From assembly GCF_900091415.1 (NCBI RefSeq), contig NZ_FMHU01000002.1:496001-560000 (forward strand): a stretch of 64,000 nt of DNA. Direction: 5' to 3'. Below are positions 50,050 through 64,000 of this stretch, in pieces. The notes under the pieces were generated by a model that was given only the letters and a program-made list of their open reading frames with translations, was not told the origin of the DNA and did not search any database. The position numbers were made by a program, and so were the translations under genes. The DNA comes from Micromonospora inyonensis. Lineage in GTDB: Bacteria > Actinomycetota > Actinomycetes > Mycobacteriales > Micromonosporaceae. Every line of letters starts with the position of its first letter. Positions within the stretch are counted from its first letter, which is position 1.

Positions 50050-50898
50050 CTATCGGGCGCCAGCCAACTCCGTGATCAACGCGCGCGACTCGGCGGGGGA
50101 GAGGGCGACCTGGCGCAGGTTGTCGGCCACCATGCTATAGGTTCGCACCCCGTCCGGGTCCTGCACGTACATCGCCCCGTCGAGCACCTCGGTGTAGGCG
50201 ATCGGCCGGACGTGCGCGAAGTCCAGCACGACGAACTTGCCCAGTGGCGTTGCCGCGTGCGGCCCGTCCTCGGGGCGGAGCACCTGGACCGTGACGTTGG
50301 GCAGCTCGGACATCGCGGCGAGGTGGCGGAGCTGGGCCCGGCGGGTCTCCTCGCCGTTCACCCGCAGCCGCAGCGCCGCCTCGCCGATCACCGCGTGCAG
50401 GGTCAACGGATCCTCGTCGGTGAGCCGCCGGGCGCGGGTCTGCCGGAACGAGACGAACCGTTCGGCGTGGTCCGGCCGGACGAAGCCGGTTCCGAGGGTG
50501 AGCGCCTGTGCGTACTCCTCGGTCTGCAGAAGCCCCGGCACCACCATGGACTCGAAGACGAACGCGGTGTCGGCCAGCCCTTCGAGGCCGACGTAGGTGC
50601 GGAACCAGTCCGGTACGACGTTCGCCCACGGCGCCCACCACGTCTTCGCGTCGGCCCGACCCGTCAGCGAGATGAGCCGGTCGGTTGCCGGCTGGTCGGC
50701 CCCGCAGGCGCGCAGGATCGTCGCCACGTCCTCCGGGAACTGCTGGTAGCGCCCGCTCTCCATGTGGCCGAGCTTCGGCTTGCCGATGCCGGTGACGGCG
50801 GCCAACTCGCTGAGCGACATCGGCACCTCCCGTCGGTAGCGGGCCAGCTCGGCGCCGATCAACCAGCGCAACGCGGACGGGTCGTTCCGTGGCCCCAC
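50050..50898 (-). CDS. XRE-family regulator with DUF5753 domain
   Basis: 282 residues. The N-terminal helix-turn-helix includes SLSELAAVTGIGKPKLGHME. The DUF5753 domain runs from WFRTYVGLEGLADTAFVFES and PGLLQTEEYAQAL to VDLRQ-like ending VADNLRQVALSPAESRALI. I start at the GTG with AGGAGGT seven bases upstream, 11 codons inside the longest frame. Together with the DUF397 gene it forms a WhiJ-like regulatory pair; a third small gene is divergent. Confidence 0.88.
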   Translation of the reverse strand: MGPRNDPSALRWLIGAELARYRREVPMSLSELAAVTGIGKPKLGHMESGRYQQFPEDVATILRACGADQPATDRLISLTGRADAKTWWAPWANVVPDWFRTYVGLEGLADTAFVFESMVVPGLLQTEEYAQALTLGTGFVRPDHAERFVSFRQTRARRLTDEDPLTLHAVIGEAALRLRVNGEETRRAQLRHLAAMSELPNVTVQVLRPEDGPHAATPLGKFVVLDFAHVRPIAYTEVLDGAMYVQDPDGVRTYSMVADNLRQVALSPAESRALITELAGAR

Positions 50899-51006
50899 CC
50901 TGGTACCTCCTCGTCGTGCACCTACCGACACATCCTCTCCGTGAGGCTTTCGTTACGCAAGTGAACGCGCTATATGTATAGCTATCTCAAGAGGTGGAGG
51001 GCATGC

Positions 51007-51312
51007 ATGTGGGACGGAGCCATGCGACCGTTGGGCACACCGGAGGAGTTCCACCAGATGTTGGTCGACCTGGTGACCGAGTTCGCACCTCGCCGGTTCG
51101 CTATCTGCGAGGAGTACGGCGACCGGATCGACGGGGCGGTGTTCGCCTGGGGCATCGCGTTCCCCGACGGGGTCCTGCTCTGTGGCGACCAGCGGGCGTA
51201 CGCCGGACGCTTCCCGAGTGCTGACAGCGCCGTACGGATCTTCAGCCGGGTCGGTCGCCGGCTACGCCTGGTCTGGATTGACGAGCCGGCCCCACCGAGC
51301 CTCCCCACATGA
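51007..51312 (+). CDS. Hypothetical protein divergent from the XRE regulator
   Basis: 101 residues. LGTPEEFHQMLVDLVTEFAP, RRFAICEEYGDRIDGAVFAW and VLLCGDQRAYAGRFPSADSA recur in small proteins found beside XRE/DUF397 pairs; function unknown. GGAGG is six bases before the ATG. The AT-rich stretch CTATATGTATAGCTAT, 35 bases upstream, is unusual for this genome and may be the promoter or an operator. A strong terminator follows. Confidence 0.65.
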   Translation: MWDGAMRPLGTPEEFHQMLVDLVTEFAPRRFAICEEYGDRIDGAVFAWGIAFPDGVLLCGDQRAYAGRFPSADSAVRIFSRVGRRLRLVWIDEPAPPSLPT

Positions 51313-51314
51313 AG

Positions 51315-51361
51315 CTGGCCGGTAGCTCCACAACGGCGGAGCTACCGGCCAGCCCTCTTTC
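51315..51361. terminator. Bidirectional terminator
   Basis: GCTGGCCGGTAGCTCC and its exact reverse complement form a 16-bp stem with an eight-base loop, followed by CCTCTTT. It lies between the convergent ends of the small XRE-linked gene and the M50 protease gene. Confidence 0.85.
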
Positions 51362-51373
51362 GCAGGGCGGGGA

Positions 51374-53848
51374 TCACGGGATCGGTGACTGCTCCGAGGC
51401 GGCTGACGGCGTCGGCTCGTTGGTCGGTTCCGGTGTCGTTCCCTCCGTGCTCGGGTCCGGTGGCGTTCCCTCCGTGCTCGGGTCCGGTGGCGTCGGAGTG
51501 CTCGTGAGTGTGGCCGGCGGCGTCGGATTCGGGGCCGGCGTCGTCGGACGCGTAGCCGGGGAAGGGTTGGCGGACGGAGTGGCCGTGGGGCTGCCGGTAG
51601 GGGTCGCCGTCGCCGACGGGCTCTGCGGAGCGGTCGTGGTGGGTGCCCCACTCGGGGCCGGTGCGGCCGGTGCGTCGGCTTCGATGATGGCCAGGATCTG
51701 CTCCTTGCAACTCGCCAGTTGGGCCTCGATCTCCTGCGGGGACAGCCCCTCGATGCGCTGACCGAACCGTTCGATCTCCTCCCACAGCGTGTTCAACCTG
51801 GCCTTGGCCTCGTCGCTCAACCCTTCGGGCAGGGTGACGACCAACTGCGAGGCCAGCGCGTAGGTGACGCAGTCCCGGCACGAGTAGTTGACGGCCGCCG
51901 AGATGTTCTGGGGCACGACCACGTCTGCGGGACCGACGACGAGCACCACCTGAAACGCGACCGCGACTGTCTGGCAGTTCTGGCAGTTGGCCAGGGCGTA
52001 GGCCTCGTTGTGGTTGTCGACGGTGTCGCCGGTGGCCCAGACGAGGGCGAACGCGACGTCGTAGACGGTGGATCCGTCCTGGGTGTTGACCGAGAGAGCC
52101 TGGTTGTCCCCGGCGCGGGGTGCCTCGGGCGGGTTGAACGGGAAGACCCAGGTGGGCGCTGGCGTGCCGTTGCCCGGCTGGTCCGGGTTCCGGGGCACCA
52201 TGACGAGCGCGAGGCGCTGTTCCTCGGTGGGTGGCGGGGCTGCCGTCGGCCAGACGGTCGTCACGGTGCGCCGCTGACCCACCTGCAGTGGGCGGTCCAC
52301 CGGCGGCACGGTGGGCTGCCGGTTCGCCATCGGCAGGGCGTCGGCGACGGTTCCGCGTTCGTGTTTCTGGATGGGCTGGTACTTCGCGCTGTCCGGCCAC
52401 CACGCCCAGACCAACGCCGCCACCACGGCAACGCCGGCGACGACCGCGGCGGCACGGCGTCTCGGCCTGCCGGCGGTGGCGTGCCACACGGCGGTGACCG
52501 TCTGCCGCACGAGGCGGACCAGCAGGTACGCGATGCCGAGCAGCGGCAGGCAGATCGCGAGCATCGCGAGCAGGCCGACGCCGATCCGGGGAACGTCACC
52601 GGCCGCCCAGTGGGTGGCGAGGAGTCCGGCGTGGTTCCCCAGGCTCTGCCACGCGGTGGCGGCTACCCGGGGGAGCGCGGTCACCACGAGGACCAGCGAC
52701 ACGAGGAGCAGCGGCACCACGGTCAGCACCCAGAGGGTGACCACCACCCGGGCCCAGGGCTTGAGCACCTTCGACTCGGCCCGGCCCCATCGGGTCGGCA
52801 GCAGCCCGAGCAACGTCGGCCTGATGCGGGAGTACAGGTCGGGTACGCCGGTCAGGTCGGCCAGGATGTGGTATCCGTCGAAGCGCACGAACGGCGCCAG
52901 TTGGCGGATCATCTGCAGCACCTGGGCCGCGATGATGAGCAGTAGCGCGTCCCACCGGGTGACCGCCCAGGTGACGAAGATCGCGACGGCGACGATCGCG
53001 TTGAAGTACAGCCCGCCGAGGTCGACCCGGATCCGGCCGGCCCGTCCGAGCCGGTAGCTGTCGTCGACGTTGGTGTAGAAGGCCGGCCAGACCAGGTAGA
53101 GGCCCACGCCCATCGTGCCGGGCATCGCGCCGCCGTACCGGCAGGCCGCGGCGTGACCGAACTCGTGGAAACCGGCCGAGACGACCGTGATCGCGAAGAC
53201 CAGCAGCAGCAGGCCGGGCTCGTCGAACGCCTGGTGGGTGGCGGAGGCCAGCCCCTTGTCGAAAAGGACCCATCCGGTTGACAGCAGGAACGCGGCGAGC
53301 ATGACGGCGACGACGAACGGCCGGAACAGCAGCGCGAAGGGAGCGGTGATCCGTTGCGTGACCTGCGGGTTCGACACCACGAACCGGAACCGGAGTGCCA
53401 GCAGGGGATTGGACCTTGGTGCCGCCGGAGCCGATCCGTCCGCCGACCGGAGGAGGCCGAGCGGCTCCAGCTTTCGCTCGGCCAGCATGCGGACGTTGTC
53501 CGCCGTCACCAACCGTTCCGTCGTGCGGGTCAGGATCTCCGCGATTTCCGGGTATGTCCGCTCTCCGTCGACCGCCTCGAGGAGCAGATAGAGCAGTCGG
53601 GTGAGTTGGCAGGTCTGCCCGTCGGCGCGTCGGACCAGCCCAGGTGGCTGACGGTAGCCGGAGCCGGGAAGCTCACCCAGCAGTTCCAGTCCCGGAGCGT
53701 GGGCCGGGACCACCTCTGGCCGGGAATCCTCCGACCCCTCCGGGAGGTGATCGCCGCTGTCCGGCCGCCGCCCGTCGGGGCGGGGCGCCGTGCTGGCAGC
53801 GCCCCGCCCCGAGGAGTCGTTCGTGTCGATCGGCGCGATGACACTCAT
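51374..53848 (-). CDS. PqqD/RRE-like domain fused to polytopic M50 metalloprotease
   Basis: 824 residues. After a disordered N-terminus, residues ~62-133 (LVRRADGQTCQLTRLLYLLL, DGERTYPEIAEILTRTTERL, MLAERKLEPLGLL) have the pattern of PqqD-like RiPP-recognition domains. Several membrane helices follow. The zinc site is GFHEFGHAAAC (His228, Glu229, His232), with RFDGYHILADL (Asp324) as second motif. After a last helix near residue 465-485 comes a ~230-residue, probably external, domain with two CxxC pairs (Cys622/625, Cys657/660), then a Pro/Thr/Ser-rich tail. It is encoded five bases after the duplicated-repeat protein, which is its likely substrate. This resembles 'putative peptide zinc metalloproteases' of peptide-maturation loci. 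Confidence 0.85.
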   Translation of the reverse strand: MSVIAPIDTNDSSGRGAASTAPRPDGRRPDSGDHLPEGSEDSRPEVVPAHAPGLELLGELPGSGYRQPPGLVRRADGQTCQLTRLLYLLLEAVDGERTYPEIAEILTRTTERLVTADNVRMLAERKLEPLGLLRSADGSAPAAPRSNPLLALRFRFVVSNPQVTQRITAPFALLFRPFVVAVMLAAFLLSTGWVLFDKGLASATHQAFDEPGLLLLVFAITVVSAGFHEFGHAAACRYGGAMPGTMGVGLYLVWPAFYTNVDDSYRLGRAGRIRVDLGGLYFNAIVAVAIFVTWAVTRWDALLLIIAAQVLQMIRQLAPFVRFDGYHILADLTGVPDLYSRIRPTLLGLLPTRWGRAESKVLKPWARVVVTLWVLTVVPLLLVSLVLVVTALPRVAATAWQSLGNHAGLLATHWAAGDVPRIGVGLLAMLAICLPLLGIAYLLVRLVRQTVTAVWHATAGRPRRRAAAVVAGVAVVAALVWAWWPDSAKYQPIQKHERGTVADALPMANRQPTVPPVDRPLQVGQRRTVTTVWPTAAPPPTEEQRLALVMVPRNPDQPGNGTPAPTWVFPFNPPEAPRAGDNQALSVNTQDGSTVYDVAFALVWATGDTVDNHNEAYALANCQNCQTVAVAFQVVLVVGPADVVVPQNISAAVNYSCRDCVTYALASQLVVTLPEGLSDEAKARLNTLWEEIERFGQRIEGLSPQEIEAQLASCKEQILAIIEADAPAAPAPSGAPTTTAPQSPSATATPTGSPTATPSANPSPATRPTTPAPNPTPPATLTSTPTPPDPSTEGTPPDPSTEGTTPEPTNEPTPSAASEQSPIP

Positions 53849-53853
53849 GTCTG

Positions 53854-54516
53854 TTACTGGGTGATCTCGGCCGTCTGGTCGGCCGTGGCTTCCGCGGTCA
53901 CGTCGTCGAGGTGCTGGTTGATGATGGCGTCCTGTTGGGAGATCGCGGTCGCGCTGGAGTCCACCGACGCGACGTTCGCGGCTACTGCGGCGTCGATCGG
54001 GGCCGCGACGTTGGCGTTGGCGGCGACGGCGCCCGCGACCGGGGCGGCCAGGTCGGCGTCAAGAGCGACGTTCACGTCGACGTTGAGCAGGTCACCGTCG
54101 AGCATCGAGGTCGGGTCGGTCGGCACGGTCACGTCACCGGGGTCACCGGGGTCGGTGGGAGTGGGTTCGCCGCTGCCCGGGTCCACGACGTCGTCGGACT
54201 GGTCGATCGTGCTGTCTTGGGGAGCGGTGGCGATCGCCTCGCCGGAGAGCGTCTGTTCGATGAGGACGCCCTGGTCGGACAGGGCGGCGGCTTCCGAGCC
54301 GGTGGAGAGGATGTTCGCGCCGACCGCGGCGTCGATGGGGGCCGCGATGTTGGCGTTGGCGGCGACCGCGAGGTCGATCGGGGCCGCGAGGTCCAGCGCG
54401 AGGTCGAGGTCCACGTTGAGGTCGAGGAGCGAGATCACCTCTTTGGTCGGCAGCGCGGTTGCCGACTCGGCAGCCAACTCGTCCATCGACAGGGGCGTCA
54501 GATCGGGTGCACTCAC
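53854..54516 (-). CDS. Ala/Asp-rich two-repeat protein, likely substrate of the M50 protease
   Basis: 220 residues from a GTG with GGAG five bases upstream. Residues 1-29 form a leader-like segment (LTPLSMDELAAESATALPTK). Residues ~30-106 and ~143-220 are homologous halves: LLDLNVDLDLALDLAAPIDL aligns with LLNVDVNVALDADLAAPVAG, AVAANANIAAPIDAAVGAN with AVAANANVAAPIDAAVAAN, and both end in Gln/Asp-rich DQ...Q motifs. An acidic Pro/Thr linker joins them. There is no signal peptide, cysteine or membrane helix. I recall similar proteins in other actinomycetes without a known function. It is encoded directly upstream of the RRE-M50 gene, so the two are probably co-transcribed. Confidence 0.8.
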   Translation of the reverse strand: MSAPDLTPLSMDELAAESATALPTKEVISLLDLNVDLDLALDLAAPIDLAVAANANIAAPIDAAVGANILSTGSEAAALSDQGVLIEQTLSGEAIATAPQDSTIDQSDDVVDPGSGEPTPTDPGDPGDVTVPTDPTSMLDGDLLNVDVNVALDADLAAPVAGAVAANANVAAPIDAAVAANVASVDSSATAISQQDAIINQHLDDVTAEATADQTAEITQ

Positions 54517-54685: not shown

Positions 54686-54973
54686 TCAGTGGATGCGGCG
54701 GACGTCGTAGCCGGGGCCCTCGACGGCGGTCACGAACTCCTGCCCGCGCATCCGGCACCAGGCCGGGATGTCCACCGCCGCCGCCGGATCGTCGGCGAGC
54801 ACCCGCAGCACCGCGCCGACCGGCAGGTCCGGCAGGCGGCGGGCGAGGGCGATGACCGGCAGCGGGCAGCGCTGCCCGCGACAATCCAGCACCTCGCCCG
54901 GCTCGGCGGTCGCGCCCGGTTCAGTGGTCGGGGCTCGTCGCGGGTCGGCCCCGGCGGGCCGGGCGGGGGTCAC
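54686..54973 (-). CDS. TusA/SirA-family sulfurtransferase
   Basis: 95 residues. LDCRGQRCPLPVIALARRLP contains the family's CPxP motif, and VGAVLRVLADDPAAAVDIPA and WCRMRGQEF complete the small alpha/beta fold. The GTG start overlaps the stop of the cysteine desulfurase gene (GTGA), so the persulfide donor and carrier are co-translated. Target pathway (tRNA thiolation, molybdopterin or other) is not shown by the context. Confidence 0.87.
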   Translation of the reverse strand: MTPARPAGADPRRAPTTEPGATAEPGEVLDCRGQRCPLPVIALARRLPDLPVGAVLRVLADDPAAAVDIPAWCRMRGQEFVTAVEGPGYDVRRIH

Positions 54974-56121
54974 AGCCCCACCACGCCGGCCTCGGCGCGC
55001 AGGTCGGCGACGATCCCCGGCAGTTCGGCCAGGAACCGCTCGACGTCCGCCTCGGTGGTCTCCCGGTGCAGGCTGATCCGGACGTTGCCGTGGGAGAGCA
55101 CCCCCATCGCCTCCAGCACGTGCGACGGTCGCAACGTCGACGCGGTGCACGACGACCCGGAGGAAACCGCGAAGCCCCGCCGGTCCAGCGCGTGCAGCAG
55201 CGCCTCGCCGTCGACGTAGAGGCAGGAGAAGGTCACCAGGTGGGGGAGGCGGTCCACCGGATCGCCCACCACCTCGACGTCCGGCACCTCCACCGCGACC
55301 CGGGTCCGGATCCGTTCCACCAGCGGCGTCAGCCGGGCGGCCTCGGCCGCCGCGTCGGCCGCCGCCGCGCGCAGGCTCGCCGCCGCCGCCACCACCGCCG
55401 GCAGGTTCAGCGACCCGGGGGTACGCCCCGCCTCGGCCTCGTCGGCCGGCCAGGGCGACTCCCAGCGGGTGCCCTTGCGGACCACCAGCAGCCCCACGCC
55501 CGACGGGCCGCCCCACTTGTGCGCGCTGGCGGTCAGCACCGACCAGCCGGCGGGCACCGGTGCCCGGCCGACCACCTGGGCCGCGTCGACGTGCAGCGGC
55601 ACCCCCGCCCCGGCGCAGGCGGCGGCGGCTTCGGCGACCGGCTGCACGGTGCCCACCTCGTGGCTGGCCGCGATCAGGCTGGCCCAGGCCACACCGGGGG
55701 CGCGCACCGCTGCCGCCCAGCCGTCGAGGTCGAGTCGGCCCAGCCGGTCCACCGGCACCGGCACCGCCGCGCCGCCGCCCGCCACGTGCCGTTCGGCGGC
55801 GTGCAGCACGGCGGAGTGTTCGATCGCCGAGTGCACCAGCACCGGCCCGACCCGCCGGCGGGCGGCCAACCCGCCCAGCACCGCGCCGTGGGCGGCGGTG
55901 GTGCCGTTGGCGGTGAAGGAGAGCTCGTCGGGGCGTACGCCGAGGGTCTCGGCGGCGGCGGCCCGCGCCGCGTCGAGGAGTTGGCGGGCCCGGCGGGCCT
56001 GGGCGTAGAGCCGGCCGGGGTCGGCCCAACCGTCGGCCAGGGCGGCGCCCAGCGCCTGTCTGGCTACCGGGTGCAACGGGGCGGCGGTGGCCGCGTCCAG
56101 GTAGACCGAAGCAGCGCTCAC
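54970..56121 (-). CDS. Cysteine desulfurase (class V aminotransferase fold)
   Basis: 383 residues. VYLDAATAAPLHPVARQALG is the N-terminal motif. LIAASHEVGTVQPVAEAA and VDAAQVVGRAPV bind PLP. The Schiff-base lysine is in TASAHKWGGPSGVGLLV, and the catalytic Cys is in SSGSSCTASTLRPSHVL. It converts cysteine to alanine and a protein persulfide, here passed to the TusA-like partner encoded next. Adjacent to, and divergent from, ctaC; nearby erpA and nadA make a Fe-S role possible, but the TusA coupling points to sulfur trafficking. Confidence 0.9.
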   Translation of the reverse strand: MSAASVYLDAATAAPLHPVARQALGAALADGWADPGRLYAQARRARQLLDAARAAAAETLGVRPDELSFTANGTTAAHGAVLGGLAARRRVGPVLVHSAIEHSAVLHAAERHVAGGGAAVPVPVDRLGRLDLDGWAAAVRAPGVAWASLIAASHEVGTVQPVAEAAAACAGAGVPLHVDAAQVVGRAPVPAGWSVLTASAHKWGGPSGVGLLVVRKGTRWESPWPADEAEAGRTPGSLNLPAVVAAAASLRAAAADAAAEAARLTPLVERIRTRVAVEVPDVEVVGDPVDRLPHLVTFSCLYVDGEALLHALDRRGFAVSSGSSCTASTLRPSHVLEAMGVLSHGNVRISLHRETTEADVERFLAELPGIVADLRAEAGVVGL

Positions 56122-56317
56122 GGGTGCCAACGTAGCGCGTGGGAGCCGTTCGGGATCCCTCGACCGGGGCGGACACGCGACCCCAGGGCGGTCCGGTCCG
56201 CCCCGGTCGAGTAATCTGCGACCGTCGGTGACGCCTTTGCCGGCGGTGCTGTCACTCCGCCGGCCGGGCCGGCGGAACCGGGCCAGACACCGCGGCGCGC
56301 TAGGGAGGCAGGACCAG

Positions 56318-57292
56318 GTGGTCGCAAGGAGTTCGGAGGTACGGCCGACGGCCGTACGGCACAGCACTTCCCCGGGAGCCGGTGGGCGTCGGGGACGGGG
56401 TGCCGGGCGGCTCGCCGGTCTCGGTCTCGGCGCAGCGGCGACGCTGGTCCTGCTGACGGGGTGCGACGTCGGTGCGGCGTTCGACGGGTTCGGCTGGCCG
56501 CAGGGCGGCGTCTCGGCCGAGTCCCGGCGGATGTACGACCTCTGGATCGCGTCCTGCATCGCGGCGCTCGCGGTCGGCGTCTTCGTCTGGGGCCTGATCT
56601 TCTGGTGCATCATCCGTTACCGCAAGCGCGGTAACGAGCTGCCCGTGCAGACCCGGTTCAACATGCCGATGGAGTTCCTCTACACCATCGCGCCGATCCT
56701 CATCGTCTCGGTGCTCTTCTACTACACTGCGGTCGTCCAGACCGACGTGGAGAGGCGCACGGCGAACCCGGACGTCGTCGTCGAGATCGTCGCGTTCAAG
56801 TGGAACTGGCAGTTCAACTACCGCGACGGCCTGGGTAAGGACGCCAACACCGTCGCCTCGGTCCTCGGCACCAGTGAGGTCATCCCGGTCCTGGTGCTGC
56901 CGACCAACCGGTCCATCCGGTTCGAGGAGACCAGCAAGGACGTCATCCACTCCTTCTGGGTGCCGGAGCTGCTCTTCAAGCGGGACGTCTTCCCCGGCAA
57001 GATCCGCAACGAGTTCGAGATCTCCGAGCTGGTGACCGAGGGCGCGTACGTGGGCCGCTGCGCCGAGCTGTGCGGCAGCTACCACGCCTTCATGAACTTC
57101 GAGCTGCGGGTCGTGTCGCCGGAGGAGTACGACCGGTTCCTCGCCGCGAAGCGGGACGGCCGGTCGACGCAGGAGGCGCTCCAGTCCATCGGCGAGGACC
57201 CGTACGCGACGACCACCGAGCCGTTCGAGACCCGGCGTACCAACAGCAACTTCAACAACGCGGCCGGCACGCCGGCCGGCGCGGGACGCTGA
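56318..57292 (+). CDS. ctaC: Cytochrome c oxidase subunit II
   Basis: 324 residues from a GTG with GGGAGG nine bases upstream. The lipobox LVLLTGC (Cys49) indicates a lipoprotein; two membrane helices follow (DLWIASCIAALAVGVFVWGL and MEFLYTIAPILIVSVLFYYT). The CuA site is HSFWVPELLF plus GRCAELCGSYHAFM. It accepts electrons from the bcc complex in the actinobacterial supercomplex. Cotranscribed with ctaF. Confidence 0.94.
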   Translation: MVARSSEVRPTAVRHSTSPGAGGRRGRGAGRLAGLGLGAAATLVLLTGCDVGAAFDGFGWPQGGVSAESRRMYDLWIASCIAALAVGVFVWGLIFWCIIRYRKRGNELPVQTRFNMPMEFLYTIAPILIVSVLFYYTAVVQTDVERRTANPDVVVEIVAFKWNWQFNYRDGLGKDANTVASVLGTSEVIPVLVLPTNRSIRFEETSKDVIHSFWVPELLFKRDVFPGKIRNEFEISELVTEGAYVGRCAELCGSYHAFMNFELRVVSPEEYDRFLAAKRDGRSTQEALQSIGEDPYATTTEPFETRRTNSNFNNAAGTPAGAGR

Positions 57293-57957: not shown

Positions 57958-58640
57958 GCCCGGGCAGCCCTGACAGCCCAGGCAGACCCGTGCCCGCCGA
58001 CGAGGCAGGTACCGGCCGCCCGGACAAAGGCAACGTACCCCCGTGGTCCAGCCAGGACAGGTCCTCACCCTGCGGGCGGTCCGGTCCGAGGGCAGGGCCC
58101 GGCACCGATGCTTGCCGGGGCTAACCCGGATCGCTCACCCCGTACCGCGCCGCCACGCGGCCGTGACCTTCCTGGACCAGCCGCAGCAGAGCACTGCCGC
58201 GCAATACCCCGATCAGGTGATGCACCGTCCGCCGCGGTGTGAATGTCGCCTCGGCGAGGGCTGACTCGCTGACGGTGATGATCCCGTTGTCGTCCATATG
58301 GTCGATCAGGGCGTTCCACAACTGCCGCAGCTGTTCCCGCTGCCGTGTTGTGGTGGCGATGTGGTCGGCGTGCTGGTCGAACAGTGTCTGGGCCTCATTC
58401 GGGTCGCGCACCCACCGGCTGCCCGCAGTGGGTTGGGGTTGGGGTTGGTCGGGGTGGAGTGGGGCGGGGGCGGTGGGTGGCTCGTGGGCCGGGTGATGGG
58501 GAGTGTCGCCGGCATGGAGAGTGCCGGCGTCGGTGCGGGTCACCGCTGGAGAGGGTGCGAGGGAGGGTTGCCAGTCCATGTCCGGCCCCTGGTGGGTGGC
58601 CCAGTCGCCGAGGTTCCCGCTGCCGGCAACCCGCCCACCG
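57955..58640. repeat. Giant-gene module, copy 1 (degenerate, partly untranslated)
   Basis: Closely similar to 62595-63260 (by eye well over 90% in the first 180 bases). It encodes, on the minus strand, the winged-helix-like module plus the PGPALGPDRPQGED / SWLDHGGTLP linker. The part left of 58121 follows the stop codon and is no longer translated. Confidence 0.8.
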
Positions 58641-61600
58641 GGCACGGCGGGCAACCCCGCCGGCCCGGCAGCACCGTCGGGCAGGGACCACAACCGCACC
58701 GTCTGGTCGTCGCCGGCGGAGACCACCACCCGCCGGCCCGAATCGTCCTGCCACGACGTCACCGCTCCCACCGTGTCGGTGTGGCCCTCGAACGTCAGGA
58801 GTTCCTCACCGGTGACCGGGTCCCAGATCCGCACTGTCCGGTCCCTGCTGGCGGAGGCCACCCGCCAGTCCGACCCCGTCTGCCACGACGTCACCGCTCC
58901 CACCGTGTCGGTGTGGCCCTCGAACGTCAGGAGTTCCTCACCGGTGACCGGGTCCCAGATCCGCACTGTCCGGTCCCTGCTGGCGGAGGCCACCCGCCAG
59001 TCCGACCCCGTCTGCCACGACGTCACCGCCCCCACCGTGTCGGTGTGGCCCTCGAACGTCCGGAGTTCCTCACCGGTGACCGGGTCCCAGATCCGCACTG
59101 TCCGGTCCTCGCTGGCGGAGGCCACCCGCCAGTCCGACCCCGCCTGCCACGACGTCACCGCCCGCACCCAGTCGGTGTGGCCCTCCAACGTCCGGAGTTC
59201 CTCACCGGTGACCGCGTCCCAGATCCGCACCGTCCGGTCCTCGCTGGCGGAGGCCACCCGCCACTGGCCCGGCGTCTCCTGCCACGACGTCACCGCCCGC
59301 ACCGCGCTGGTGTGGCCCTCCAACGTCAGGAGTTCCTCACCGGTGACCGCGTCCCAGATCCGCACCGTCCGGTCCCTGCTGGCGGAGGCCACCCGTGGGC
59401 CCGACTCTCCCTGCCACGACGTCACCGCCCGCACCGCGCTGGTGTGGCCTCTCAACGTCAGGAGTTCCTCACCGGTGACCGCGTCCCAGATCCGCACCGT
59501 CCGGTCCCAGCCCCCGGCGGAGGCCACCCGTGGGCCCGACTCTCCCTGCCACGACGTCACCGCCTCCACCGCGCGGGTGTGGCCCTCCAAAGTCCGGAAC
59601 TCCACACCGTCGACCACGTCCACTGATGGTGTGGCGGCACCGGCTCCCACCTGTCCGAGGTGCTGGTCCAACTCCGCGGCCGCTGCCTCAACCCGGCCAA
59701 GCCGTCCACTCAACGCCGCGGTGTCGGACACCGATGGGACGTACTCGCTGATGTCCTGCGACTGCCGCGCGAGTCTGAGGTCCCGCATCCCGTTGAGGTA
59801 CCGGCGGGACAGCCCATCCAGGACGGACCGCTCCTGGCTGTCGTCCTGGCCGCGGTCGGTCGCGGGCGGTAGCGCCCTTTCAGCGGCTTGAAGCCTGTCA
59901 ATGCGATCCGCGTGGCTACGGCCAAGCGCTTCCCACCGTTGGATGAGGTGCCCGGTGAAGGTGGCCGCACCACCGAGAGCGGAGGCATGAACGTCATCGA
60001 CGAACAACGGATAGAACGTGCCCATTTCCTCGGCGGACGGGCCGAGCCGGCCACCGGAACCGGGTGACACGAACTCGACCAACAACAACGGGGTGTTCCC
60101 GTCCCGTCCCACCACCGGGTGTCCATACCACCCGCGGTCGTCTCCTTGTTCGACGACCTGGACCCGTACCTGGAAAAACTCCGCCAACTCGTTCAGGAAC
60201 CCACCCGAGTACACGTCGGCGCCGCGCCCGGACCGCAGATCCTGGATCACCACATGATCGGAACCCAGCCGCTGTTCCATCAGGTTCAGCAGCGCCGTCG
60301 CGCGGGTCTCCTCGTTGTCGAACCCGGGATACGCGCCCGGCCGCACGGCATTCAGGGTTTGCGCCAACGAGTCCAGCAGACACAGTAGTCCCTCACCCCG
60401 GCGGTCACCCCGGTGCATCCACTCCGGCAGACCCCCCGCCGACGGTTGCCCTCCGACCGGAGCCACGCCCTGCGGCCCGGCCACCCACTCGTGAACAACC
60501 CGGCCATTCCCGACCGGTGGTGTCGGTGCGGGTGGTGGTGTGGTCACGCCGGTCTGCCCCTGCGACACCGCCGCCGGAGCCGGCAACAACCGGATCTGAT
60601 CCTCCAACCACTGCCGCGCCAGCCCGAACGCGTTCACCGCGGAGAACAACTCGGCGCGCCGCTGCTCGGGCAGATCCGGCACCCGCCCCACCACGTTCAC
60701 CCGCTCGGGTAGTAGCGGCACGCCAAGGTTCTCCCGCAGCCGGCCAACCTGCTCTAGCGGACCGTCCGCCGACCACAACAACGCCACGTCCCCGCCATGA
60801 TCAGCCAGGAACCGGGTGAACTCCTCCCCGTTCTGAGACCGCACGCGGGACAGATCAACATACTGCCGCCCATCGAGTGCGTGAAGCACGACCGGCCGGT
60901 CCGGTGCCCGAGAGAAGGCCCAGGCGGCCAGATACACCGCCCGTAACACGTCCCGGACGGCGTCCGGGACCGTCGCGTCCCCTCGGGGCGAGCCGGTCAC
61001 CGGTGCCGCCGCCGCGGCCCACACCCGCTCGATCTGCTCCGCGATCAGGCCTTCGACCTCATCGGTCAACCGCGTCGGCGGCAACGCCGTCACCAACCGC
61101 TGATTGTCGGGGTGCCTGGCCCACGCCTCCAGCCGCAGATCGAGCCGATCCGTTCCCGCGGCCTCATCCACCCACCCGTGGGTATGTTGGACCAACCGCT
61201 CACCCAACGCCGCCAGCTGACCCACCCGCTCACCCATCCGGCGATGCGCCCGCACCCCGACCGTGCCGTCGGTGTCCGGGTCTGACAGGTCGACCGCCAC
61301 CGGATCCGTCACGGTCACATCGGGAAGCGCTACCGTCAGCTCCGCTTCCCGAGCCCGCCATGCCTCAGCCGCCCCGCCCGGTCGCACCGCCGCCGCGATC
61401 GTGGGCAACTCGGCCCGCACACGAGTCCACCCCTCCGCCTCGGCGAGATTCGACACCTCCCGTATGCCGACCGGCGGCTGGCCGGTGACCATCTCACCCA
61501 TCCGCACCGGCCACAGGTCGTCCTCCGCCACATGCGCCAACACCACCGGCGACGCCAGCCCACCGAACCCGTGCACCACCACATACACCGGCTCCCGCAA

Positions 61601-64000
61601 CCCCGACTCCACCGGCGGCAACGCACTGTTCAGGAACGTGTCGAACAACGTCGACACGACCGCCCCGGGATGCACCGGACGCGACTGCGGCACACCCACC
61701 ACGAACACCCGCGCACCATCCGGCACCCACCCCACCGGCCCCACGTCCGGCGTCGCCGAGGCCACACTCTCCCCGTGCAACTCCGCCTGCCGCAGCTCCA
61801 CCACCCGCCAACGACCAAGCCCTGACGACGGCACCGGAGGGAACACCCAATTCCGCATATACGAGGCCGCCCGCTGCCCGAACCGCGCCCAACGCCGATC
61901 CGTCGGCAGGAGGTACGGCGCATGCTCACCGGCCAATCCCGCCACCTCCCGCCAGAACACAGCCGCACGGGCCTCGCCCGGACGCATCGGACGGGCCTGG
62001 AACTCCCACAGCAACGCCCCACCCGCGAACGTGTCCCGACCCGAGAAATCGGTAGGCGTCAGGCCCTCAGGAACAGACCTCGCCACCGCGCCCGCCACAT
62101 ACCGGGCACGGATCGCCACCGCCCCCGACTGGTTACGCGCCGCCCGTAGCGCCGCGACCCGGACCAACGTCGAAGGCTCCACCCGCGGATCAGCACCGTA
62201 CGGCGACAACTCGATCACCGCCGCCGCGGGCACACTCACCCCCAACCCACCATCAAGCAACCGCGCCACCAGATCCAGCACACCCTCAGGCCCACGATCG
62301 GCGAACGCCAGCACCACCCGCCACACCCCACCACGGCCCTGCGCCTCGTCCAGCAGGACAGCCGCAGGCCGATCCGTCCTCTCACTCGCCCTCGCCGACC
62401 ACGCCTCGGCATCCGTCACCGCCTGCCGCTGCGCCACCACAGACAGACCCCGCGGATCAACCTCAGCGCCCACACCATCCGGATACACCACCACCGCCTC
62501 GGCGTCCCCGGCAGCACTGGCGACACCCCGAACCGTCAGGAACGCGGGAACCGGCCCCGTCGGCCAGGACGATGCCGTGGGGGCGTCCGGGTCGTCCAGC
62601 GGCCCGGGCAGCCCGGGCAGCCCTGGCAGACCCGTGCCCGCCGACGAGGCAGGTACCGGCCGCCCGGACATCGGCAACGTACCCCCGTGGTCCAGCCAGG
62701 ACGGGTCCTCACCCTGCGGGCGGTCCGGTCCGAGGGCAGGGCCCGGCACCGGTGCTTGCCGGGGCTGACCCGGATCGCTCACCCCGTACCGCGCCGCCAC
62801 GCGACCGCGACCTTCCTGGACCAGCTGCAGCAGACCAATGCCGCGCAATGCCCCGATCCGGTCATGCACCGTCCGCCGCGGTGTGGATGTCGCCTCGGCG
62901 AGGTCTGACTCGCTGGCGGTGATGATCCCGTTGTCGTCCATATGGTCGATCAGGGCGTGCCACCAATACCGCAGATCATCCCGCTGCCTCGTTGTGGTGG
63001 CGAGGTGGCCGGCGTGCTGGTCGAACAGCGCCCGGGCCTCGCCCGGGTCGCTCACCCGCCGGCTGCCCGCAGTGGGTTGGGGTTGGGGTTGGTCGGGGTG
63101 GAGTGGGGCGGGGGTGGTGGGTGGCTCGTGGGCCGGGTGATGGAGGGTGTCGCCGGTGTGGAGAGTGCCGGCGTCGGTGCGGGCCACCGCCGGCCAGGAC
63201 GACGCGGTGGGGGCGTCCGGGTCGTCCAGCGGGCCTGACAGCCCGGGCAGACCCGTGCCCGCCGGCGGGGCAGGTGCAGGCCCGGACATCGGCGACTGAG
63301 GTGCCGGATCCTGCATGCCCGGTCCGGGCGGGAACGACTGAGTCCCTGGGGACTGGCTGGGCTGGTCGCCGTTGGGCGGCGACCATGATGTCGGGCCGGG
63401 CGGGGCCTGCGGCCGGGGCGGATCCATCGGTTGCGGCGCGGGGTCGGGTTCCGTGCCCACGGCCTCAAGCAGATAGAGCAGATCGGCCGGGTCCACATCG
63501 AGCGAACCGGCTGGGTCCACCTCGTAGGTGGCCCAGTCGCCGAGGTTCCCGCCGTCGCTGGCCTGATCGTCGATGCCCGGCTGGTCGAAGTCGGTGGACA
63601 TCGCCGCACCGTGCCCGTCGGTCACGCCCATGCCGGGTACCGGCCACCCCGGTTCCGCCCACCCCGCCGGCCAGGACGACGCGGTGGGGGCGTCCGGGTC
63701 GTCCAACGGCCCGGGCAGCCCTGGCAGACCCGTGCCCGCCGGCGAGGCAGGTGCAGGCCCGGACATCGGCAACGTACCCCCGTGGTCCAGCCAGGACGGG
63801 TCCTCACCCTGCGGGCGGTCCGGTCCGAGGGCAGGGCCCGGCACCGGTGCTTGCCGGGGCTGACCCGGATCGCTCACCCCGTACCGCGCCGCCACGCGAC
63901 CGCGACCTTCCTGGACCAGCTGCAGCAGACCAATGCCGCGCAATGCCCCGATCCGGTCATGCACCGCCCGCCGCGGTGTGGATGTCGCCTCGGCGAGGGC
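58121..64000 (-). CDS. Giant modular protein: winged-helix-like, papain-like and WD40 domains (5' end outside window)
   Basis: At least 1959 residues; the frame is open to the window edge. Order (counted from about the edge): a winged-helix-like module (STPRRAVHDRIGALRGIGLL); acidic Pro-rich linkers with DWATYEVDPAGSLDVDPADL; a second module near 320-395 (LIDHMDDNGIITASESDLAE); ~650 residues of unrecognised alpha/beta domains (VYVVVHGFGGLASPVVLAHV, RPVVLHALDGRQYVDLSRVR); a papain-like segment near 1190-1320 with LLCLLDSLAQTLNAV; seven WD40 blades near 1450-1760; and a last winged-helix-like module. It resembles the very large proteins of actinomycetes sometimes labelled 'lonely Cys' or toxin-like. 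The stop TAG replaces the CAG found in the other repeat copies. Confidence 0.75.
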   Translation of the reverse strand, partial: ALAEATSTPRRAVHDRIGALRGIGLLQLVQEGRGRVAARYGVSDPGQPRQAPVPGPALGPDRPQGEDPSWLDHGGTLPMSGPAPASPAGTGLPGLPGPLDDPDAPTASSWPAGWAEPGWPVPGMGVTDGHGAAMSTDFDQPGIDDQASDGGNLGDWATYEVDPAGSLDVDPADLLYLLEAVGTEPDPAPQPMDPPRPQAPPGPTSWSPPNGDQPSQSPGTQSFPPGPGMQDPAPQSPMSGPAPAPPAGTGLPGLSGPLDDPDAPTASSWPAVARTDAGTLHTGDTLHHPAHEPPTTPAPLHPDQPQPQPTAGSRRVSDPGEARALFDQHAGHLATTTRQRDDLRYWWHALIDHMDDNGIITASESDLAEATSTPRRTVHDRIGALRGIGLLQLVQEGRGRVAARYGVSDPGQPRQAPVPGPALGPDRPQGEDPSWLDHGGTLPMSGRPVPASSAGTGLPGLPGLPGPLDDPDAPTASSWPTGPVPAFLTVRGVASAAGDAEAVVVYPDGVGAEVDPRGLSVVAQRQAVTDAEAWSARASERTDRPAAVLLDEAQGRGGVWRVVLAFADRGPEGVLDLVARLLDGGLGVSVPAAAVIELSPYGADPRVEPSTLVRVAALRAARNQSGAVAIRARYVAGAVARSVPEGLTPTDFSGRDTFAGGALLWEFQARPMRPGEARAAVFWREVAGLAGEHAPYLLPTDRRWARFGQRAASYMRNWVFPPVPSSGLGRWRVVELRQAELHGESVASATPDVGPVGWVPDGARVFVVGVPQSRPVHPGAVVSTLFDTFLNSALPPVESGLREPVYVVVHGFGGLASPVVLAHVAEDDLWPVRMGEMVTGQPPVGIREVSNLAEAEGWTRVRAELPTIAAAVRPGGAAEAWRAREAELTVALPDVTVTDPVAVDLSDPDTDGTVGVRAHRRMGERVGQLAALGERLVQHTHGWVDEAAGTDRLDLRLEAWARHPDNQRLVTALPPTRLTDEVEGLIAEQIERVWAAAAAPVTGSPRGDATVPDAVRDVLRAVYLAAWAFSRAPDRPVVLHALDGRQYVDLSRVRSQNGEEFTRFLADHGGDVALLWSADGPLEQVGRLRENLGVPLLPERVNVVGRVPDLPEQRRAELFSAVNAFGLARQWLEDQIRLLPAPAAVSQGQTGVTTPPPAPTPPVGNGRVVHEWVAGPQGVAPVGGQPSAGGLPEWMHRGDRRGEGLLCLLDSLAQTLNAVRPGAYPGFDNEETRATALLNLMEQRLGSDHVVIQDLRSGRGADVYSGGFLNELAEFFQVRVQVVEQGDDRGWYGHPVVGRDGNTPLLLVEFVSPGSGGRLGPSAEEMGTFYPLFVDDVHASALGGAATFTGHLIQRWEALGRSHADRIDRLQAAERALPPATDRGQDDSQERSVLDGLSRRYLNGMRDLRLARQSQDISEYVPSVSDTAALSGRLGRVEAAAAELDQHLGQVGAGAATPSVDVVDGVEFRTLEGHTRAVEAVTSWQGESGPRVASAGGWDRTVRIWDAVTGEELLTLRGHTSAVRAVTSWQGESGPRVASASRDRTVRIWDAVTGEELLTLEGHTSAVRAVTSWQETPGQWRVASASEDRTVRIWDAVTGEELRTLEGHTDWVRAVTSWQAGSDWRVASASEDRTVRIWDPVTGEELRTFEGHTDTVGAVTSWQTGSDWRVASASRDRTVRIWDPVTGEELLTFEGHTDTVGAVTSWQTGSDWRVASASRDRTVRIWDPVTGEELLTFEGHTDTVGAVTSWQDDSGRRVVVSAGDDQTVRLWSLPDGAAGPAGLPAVPGGRVAGSGNLGDWATHQGPDMDWQPSLAPSPAVTRTDAGTLHAGDTPHHPAHEPPTAPAPLHPDQPQPQPTAGSRWVRDPNEAQTLFDQHADHIATTTRQREQLRQLWNALIDHMDDNGIITVSESALAEATFTPRRTVHHLIGVLRGSALLRLVQEGHGRVAARYGVSDPG
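58690..59615 (-). repeat. Seven WD40-coding tandem repeats, ~132-bp period
   Basis: TGCCACGACGTCACC recurs at 58749, 58881, 59013, 59145, 59280, 59412 and 59547, that is every 132 or 135 bases. Each unit encodes one blade (EGHTDTVGAVTSWQ, RVASASRDRTVRIWD, VTGEELLT). Seven blades are a complete beta-propeller. Adjacent units near 58.8-59.0 kb are almost identical, indicating recent duplication or gene conversion. Confidence 0.93.
62595..63260. repeat. Giant-gene module, copy 2
   Basis: Internal copy of the winged-helix-like module with its linkers, the reference for the other two. It is fully in frame in the giant gene. Confidence 0.85.
63690..64000. repeat. Giant-gene module, copy 3 (runs off the window)
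   Basis: Repeats the sequence of copy 2 from the PLDDPDAP/GTLPMSG linker into the winged-helix-like segment, nearly base for base, up to the window edge. Confidence 0.85.

Follow-up and report, generated by a model that had tools for sequence, protein, structure and literature searches.

Recognition elements of ribosomally synthesised and post-translationally modified peptide (RiPP) pathways, or RREs, act as leader readers for peptide-modifying enzymes. Two described systems come closest to the one considered here. For the daptides, excerpts of the published account set a precedent of RRE-dependent intramembrane leader removal by the protease MpaP, in clusters averaging 2.3 precursors (PMC10036551); for the epipeptides, excerpts present EpeP as an M50 protease thought, or predicted, to cut and export its peptide (PMC10885120, PMC7614699). 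Here we analyse a two-gene locus within 64,000 nucleotides of Micromonospora inyonensis (contig NZ_FMHU01000002.1, positions 496,001 to 560,000; this whole stretch is termed the window). An RRE is joined to a membrane protease of family M50, no modifying enzyme is conserved nearby, and the apparent substrate, termed the partner, has 220 residues. The pair recurs in many actinobacteria, its sequences number in the thousands, and it looks like an undescribed way to mature and display a surface protein. We favour, with moderate confidence, the interpretation that the two genes alone make up a leader-guided unit for maturation and export. All results are computational; start codons were chosen by script, while signal peptides and topology were judged by eye.

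The two genes are tightly linked. Among the best-scoring 80 of 289 confirmed protease relatives from a scan of a genome collection, the partner lies directly upstream of the protease on the same strand in every case, with gaps of -4 to 47 bases at script-called starts. In the reverse direction, a protease adjoins all 22 full-length partner loci (L082, L083 and L123-L142); four of these protease matches are partial (L123 and L130 at contig ends, L082 and L083 at the edge of the fetched stretch), and at least three loci (L125, L128, L131) repeat contigs of the 80. The co-occurrence that the first-pass annotation set as a check is borne out. Pairwise distances among partners track those among proteases (r 0.83; 2000 permutations reach at most 0.17). 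With the genome of the window included, partners are present in 5 of 151 genomes from the genus, in 4 of 61 from the family (one match marginal at E 8.6e-4) and in 24 of 296 from the class, where 17 are full-length; the pair looks to have been gained and lost as a unit. Neighbours within 8 kb, surveyed in 36 of the 80 loci, yielded no conserved third gene: the largest shared families cover four genus labels, and one of them looks like other-frame readings of the M50 gene itself. Neither a modifying enzyme nor an exporter recurs in this survey, distant enzymes lying outside its scope, and for these 36 loci the earlier description of a pair with neither adjacent is supported. A phage link was sought in IMG/VR, which gave pattern matches but no tblastn-confirmed relatives of A4 or A5. 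No paper in the open-licence literature was recognised as describing the pair, such absence being weak.

The partner was originally described as two homologous halves behind a short N-terminal segment, and the duplication holds. Aligned with BLOSUM62, the halves score 178 where 500 shuffles reach at most 69, and compared as profiles they match at Prob 99.7. The GTG start has GGAG five bases upstream and aligns with the starts of most homologues (A1). In the leader (Table 1), L22, P23, K25, E26, V27, S29 and D32 are invariant across 64 homologues; mean entropy is 0.43 bits across residues 21-34, against 2.39 bits over residues 108-138, the highest among ten stretches. The 102 full-length partners examined each carry one leader, with two core matches in 92 and three in 10, the latter being probable split hits. 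The protein is strongly acidic (38 D/E to 1 K/R) and free of Cys; hydropathy indicates no transmembrane segment (maximum 19-residue mean 1.43), and no Sec signal is recognisable by eye. Homologues are plentiful (3936 of 7999 scored candidates at E <= 0.001), and no family model matches above its cut-off.

A spaced A/Q/I pattern with xxIxQ at its end recurs in the cores, and a looser motif, A-xxxxx-Q-xxx-(I/V/L/F)-x-Q, occurs in three or four copies in 58 of the 64 partners. An AlphaFold2 model is beta-rich but weak (predicted local distance difference test, pLDDT, 63.4; predicted template modelling score 0.31). Beta amphipathicity is strong in segments 30-43, 46-58 and 143-157, and absent from three of the four Gln segments. 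The motif pattern suggests a stacking beta structure, perhaps amyloid-like, but finds no support from family models.

The protease gene begins five bases after the partner gene on the same strand, as read at the junction. The first-pass description of an 824-residue M50 enzyme is confirmed by the open reading frames and by HEFGH (residues 228-232) and DGYH (324-327). The M50/site-2 protease signature is present as HExxH with a downstream Asp ligand in membrane helices, and H228, E229, H232 and D324 are invariant across 50 aligned proteases. The predicted structure suggests a site-2-protease-like fold, with RseP and SpoIVFB among its matches; Foldseek alone returned no significant PDB match, a PDB sequence search nothing at E <= 1, and a profile search nothing better than E 0.17. 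The PqqD-like domain had been placed at residues 55-135. Its RRE assignment stands on the AlphaFold2 model and the structure match, but its span is about 45-137. Residues 41-140 are modelled with block-mean pLDDT of 79-96 in the order strand-strand-strand-helix-helix-helix, matching RRE structures and sharing the fold of lasso B1 proteins and PqqD over 82-84 residues. By sequence the domain is nearly invisible: Pfam PqqD matches one of 50 relatives (E 0.0064), and a search of the genome that contains the window gives no hit at E <= 0.001. At E <= 0.001 the protease has 4581 homologues among 7997 scored candidates, and sources that name homologues of the pair mostly use 'hypothetical', 'peptidoglycan-binding' or 'peptide zinc metalloprotease'.

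Leader-plus-core precursors were found in a second, unfused form of the locus. Seven genomes of the class search contain only short tandem matches, giving eight loci (L113-L120), each with three small genes that have a leader match and a core match. Short precursors with called starts measure 68-96 residues, and carry ELPDRE(A/Q)MSL or a close variant before a single core of about 37 residues. The conserved N-terminal segment of the partner, proposed as a leader in the first-pass annotation, is seen again ahead of single cores (leader profiles: Prob 97.7, E 1.4e-12), which strongly supports its being a leader. The short-core profile matches the halves of the window protein at Prob 98.6 and 98.3, and the short-precursor model, run on the genome that contains the window, matches these two halves only. 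A tighter motif, A-x-A-x-A-x-Q-xxx-(I/V/F)-x-Q, occurs in all 37 aligned short precursors. Such precursors form an abundant class: 7997 of the 7998 candidates that were scored lie at E <= 10, the top 120 of them at E <= 4.5e-22. An RRE-M50 protease adjoins the short precursors in seven of these loci, which represent six of the seven genomes; in the remaining locus, L119, the genes reach a contig end. Two CxxC motifs mark the C-terminal part of all 80 fused proteases; the motif is absent from all seven unfused-locus proteases, and the same seven loci encode the CxxC domain as a separate gene (two such genes in L117). The fused domain, here called Cys4, matches the standalone set plus one Streptomyces protein at Prob 99.7 and E 6e-27.

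In a protease tree of 28 fused, seven unfused and two Streptomyces sequences, fused (support 0.82) and unfused (0.995) proteases form separate clades; with the Streptomyces pair as assumed outgroup, fusion looks like the derived state. One of these Streptomyces loci, L121, encodes a Cys4-type protein separately and also carries a short gene with a leader. Both L121 and L122 retain a leader end, ELLPGREAL or ELLPERAVL, before an unrelated core, as would be expected of a leader-guided system. Neighbouring genes, among them one for a RecQ-like helicase, are common to four unfused loci (L113, L114, L115, L119) through local synteny; the source genome of L115 is listed with 8% contamination. The two forms amount to a natural experiment, in which a leader-core peptide system would become a protein-display system, and two genes should suffice for a clean heterologous test.

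Several further observations concern these small genes and the Cys4 domain. The short genes of the Streptomyces plasmid loci with related RRE-M50 proteases (L121 4193-4405; L122 2389-2685 and 4308-4616), one with a Gly-rich core containing Cys, may represent additional product classes of this kind. Upstream frames forming N-terminal extensions of P0243, P0255 and P0261 read like 'RRSGNGLNVVADVNAVVSTN', and another in L120 (9804-10067) has a core match ending in VQQTAITQ that resembles a leaderless core; possibly these represent another small gene of the system. Standalone Cys4 genes may sit divergently upstream of the precursors (L117, L118, L120). Two of the 80 fused loci have an extra, separate Cys4-type reading frame directly upstream of the partner (L008 8230-9087 (+); L044 8331-9128 (+)), covering protease-profile positions of about 431-720 and 533-729. 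We also considered Cys4 as a copy of the product, akin to a CsgB-like nucleator. Against both the short core and core 2, the fused Cys4 profile outscored each of 200 column shuffles, and against core 1 it outscored 197 of 200, but the idea failed with an independent profile of nine standalone Cys4 proteins, whose observed scores against the cores were reached by 7, 25 and 20 of 150 shuffles.

Table 1. Features of the partner-protease locus, in window coordinates.
Feature	Position	Strand	Details
Partner (substrate candidate), coding sequence	53854..54516	-	220 residues, GTG start
Leader, partner residues 1-34	54415..54516	-	contains DELAAESATALPTKEVISLLDLN; invariant columns, low entropy, profile match to short-precursor leader
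Half/core 1, partner residues 29-107	54196..54432	-	overlaps leader end; half-half alignment, profiles, short-precursor model
Linker, partner residues 108-136	54109..54195	-	variable, D/G/P/T-rich; alignment, entropy
Half/core 2, partner residues 137-220	53857..54108	-	C-terminal Gln; half-half alignment, profiles, short-precursor model
RRE-M50 membrane protease, coding sequence	51374..53848	-	824 residues, ATG start
RRE (PqqD-like winged helix), protease residues 45-137	53438..53716	-	
Membrane core resembling a site-2 protease, with additional transmembrane helices, residues 150-484	52397..53401	-	
HEFGH zinc-binding motif, residues 228-232	53153..53167	-	HE[FVILC]GH in 80/80 loci
FDGYH motif, residues 323-327	52868..52882	-	D324 candidate third zinc ligand; DGYH in 80/80 loci
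Cys4 domain, presumably extracellular, residues 545-725	51674..52216	-	two invariant CxxC pairs, C622/C625 and C657/C660
Ser/Thr/Pro-rich low-complexity tail, residues 726-824	51377..51673	-	block-mean pLDDT 30-40 from residue 731
Possible terminator without T-run	51314..51353	.	perfect 18-bp hairpin, 4-base loop; from folding; 3' of the M50 gene, between convergent genes

Scans of the locus for terminators and sigma-70 promoters called none, the hairpin of Table 1 included. Near the pair lie a DUF5753/HTH_31 regulator (50050-50931 (-); closest NCBIfam model Sco1979, below cut-off) and, divergent from it, a 112-residue reading frame without a family (50974-51312 (+)). Upstream is a class-V aminotransferase reading frame (54970-56613), which belongs to no recurrent flank family. 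A 1947-residue reading frame near the window edge (58121-63964 (-)) contains seven WD40 repeats, together with a segment resembling a winged helix (Pfam HTH_43, E 2.5e-6) that by eye recurs within the protein.

In the mechanism we propose, the partner would be synthesised in the cytoplasm with its conserved leader (residues 1 to about 34) ahead of two homologous cores rich in beta structure. The RRE of the protease, which we place in the cytosol, would bind the leader, probably via LPxKEVxSLLDLN, and binding would position the Ala/Val/Asn-rich start of the core at the intramembrane zinc site, where the leader would be cut. Because no exporter is conserved nearby, the freed repeat protein would cross outward at the protease itself, as proposed for EpeP. 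Outside, the disulfide-stapled Cys4 domain would retain the product or aid its folding at the cell surface. This scheme uses every conserved part, its steps beyond the fold assignments being ones we infer, and the earlier leader-guided interpretation as a whole is partly supported. A more specific version, a Sec-independent route in which the RRE protease exports unmodified beta-rich cores by way of its own membrane domain and Cys4 seeds curli-like surface fibres, is rather unlikely. If true, RiPP leader logic would serve bulk surface-protein secretion instead of small-molecule biosynthesis.

Of the alternatives, a RiPP pathway proper survives best, although we consider it improbable: enzymes from other parts of the genome would modify the cores chemically, while the M50 protease would do no more than remove the leader. 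An RRE with leader-core precursors, and a protease akin to those of daptides and epipeptides, speak for it. The three tandem precursors of each unfused locus invite comparison with the precursor average in the daptide excerpts (PMC10036551), and Thr, the residue modified by daptide enzymes, ends 18 of the 37 aligned short precursors. This residue is not invariant (Asn ends 12, other residues seven), and it ends none of 64 partners, 54 of which end in Gln; Cys is missing from partners and short precursors alike. Furthermore, the 36 loci have no recurrent enzyme family next to the pair, oxidative decarboxylases, aminotransferases and methyltransferases of the daptide type included. Around the unfused loci, compared by shared-family clustering only, the gene families found in all three taxonomic families seem to be genes of the system itself read in other frames.

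RseP and SpoIVFB function in signalling, and the fold matches to them could point to regulated intramembrane proteolysis, with a signalling or anti-sigma-like partner degraded or activated by the M50 enzyme upon an outside signal sensed by Cys4, which presumably lies outside. We think this very improbable: the partner lacks a transmembrane segment by hydropathy and a family match above cut-off, is repetitive, and has three tandem counterparts in unfused loci. A secreted antimicrobial peptide or bacteriocin system, as the tandem short peptides, the differing cores of the Streptomyces plasmid loci and the M50 kin maturing epipeptides and daptides might imply, is scarcely probable, given that flank families, and with them any immunity gene or exporter, fail to recur in the 36 loci and that the fused form is a 220-residue acidic protein with cores near-invariant across genera.

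The proposed leader-guided unit can finally be set beside known systems. Like the daptide protease MpaP (NCBIfam NF041824, daptide_HExxH) as excerpts present it, the protease joins an RRE at its N-terminus to an intramembrane site-2 protease, and as at MpaP loci several short leader-core reading frames may adjoin it (PMC10036551). It matches NF041824 at E 4.3e-29 over residues 71-389, with 101.8 bits against a cut-off of 300; four relatives score 77-102.8 bits, likewise below it. In contrast to daptides, there is no ELExMEAP leader motif or invariant C-terminal Thr, and no recurrent modifying enzymes or ABC transporters stand beside the pair; in contrast to MpaP, the protease adds the Cys4 domain and a S/T/P tail, and its partner has 220 residues with two cores. 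As with EpeP/YydH/LiaK (NF058609), going by excerpts on those epipeptide proteases, an M50 membrane protease lies beside a peptide substrate, here an apparent one (PMC10885120, PMC7614699). The match to that model is E 1.3e-12 (47.9 bits of a 225-bit cut-off), and, unlike in epipeptide systems, no epimerase recurs beside the pair. To our knowledge EpeP has no RRE. Discrete RREs, such as lasso B1 proteins and PqqD, are stand-alone pathway helpers, whereas the RRE here forms part of a membrane protease. Cells are also coated by curli subunits (CsgA/CsgB) and chaplins, secreted proteins that are either repetitive or short and hydrophobic; the A/Q/I repeats of the cores resemble them by eye only, and neither curlin nor chaplin families appear among Pfam matches (E <= 10) of the 64 partners and 37 short precursors. 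The pair is an RRE-site-2-protease system for apparently unmodified precursors, either protein-sized or short and in tandem, which we set apart from daptides and other RiPPs because the daptide score, enzymes and invariant C-terminal Thr, and the modifying enzyme that defines a RiPP, are lacking. The claim that the pair is undescribed must accordingly be narrowed: RRE-site-2 proteases that remove leaders are known from daptides, as excerpts of that account attest (PMC10036551). The kind of protease is already known; the pair differs in its substrate, in lacking conserved modifying enzymes and in having the CxxC domain.
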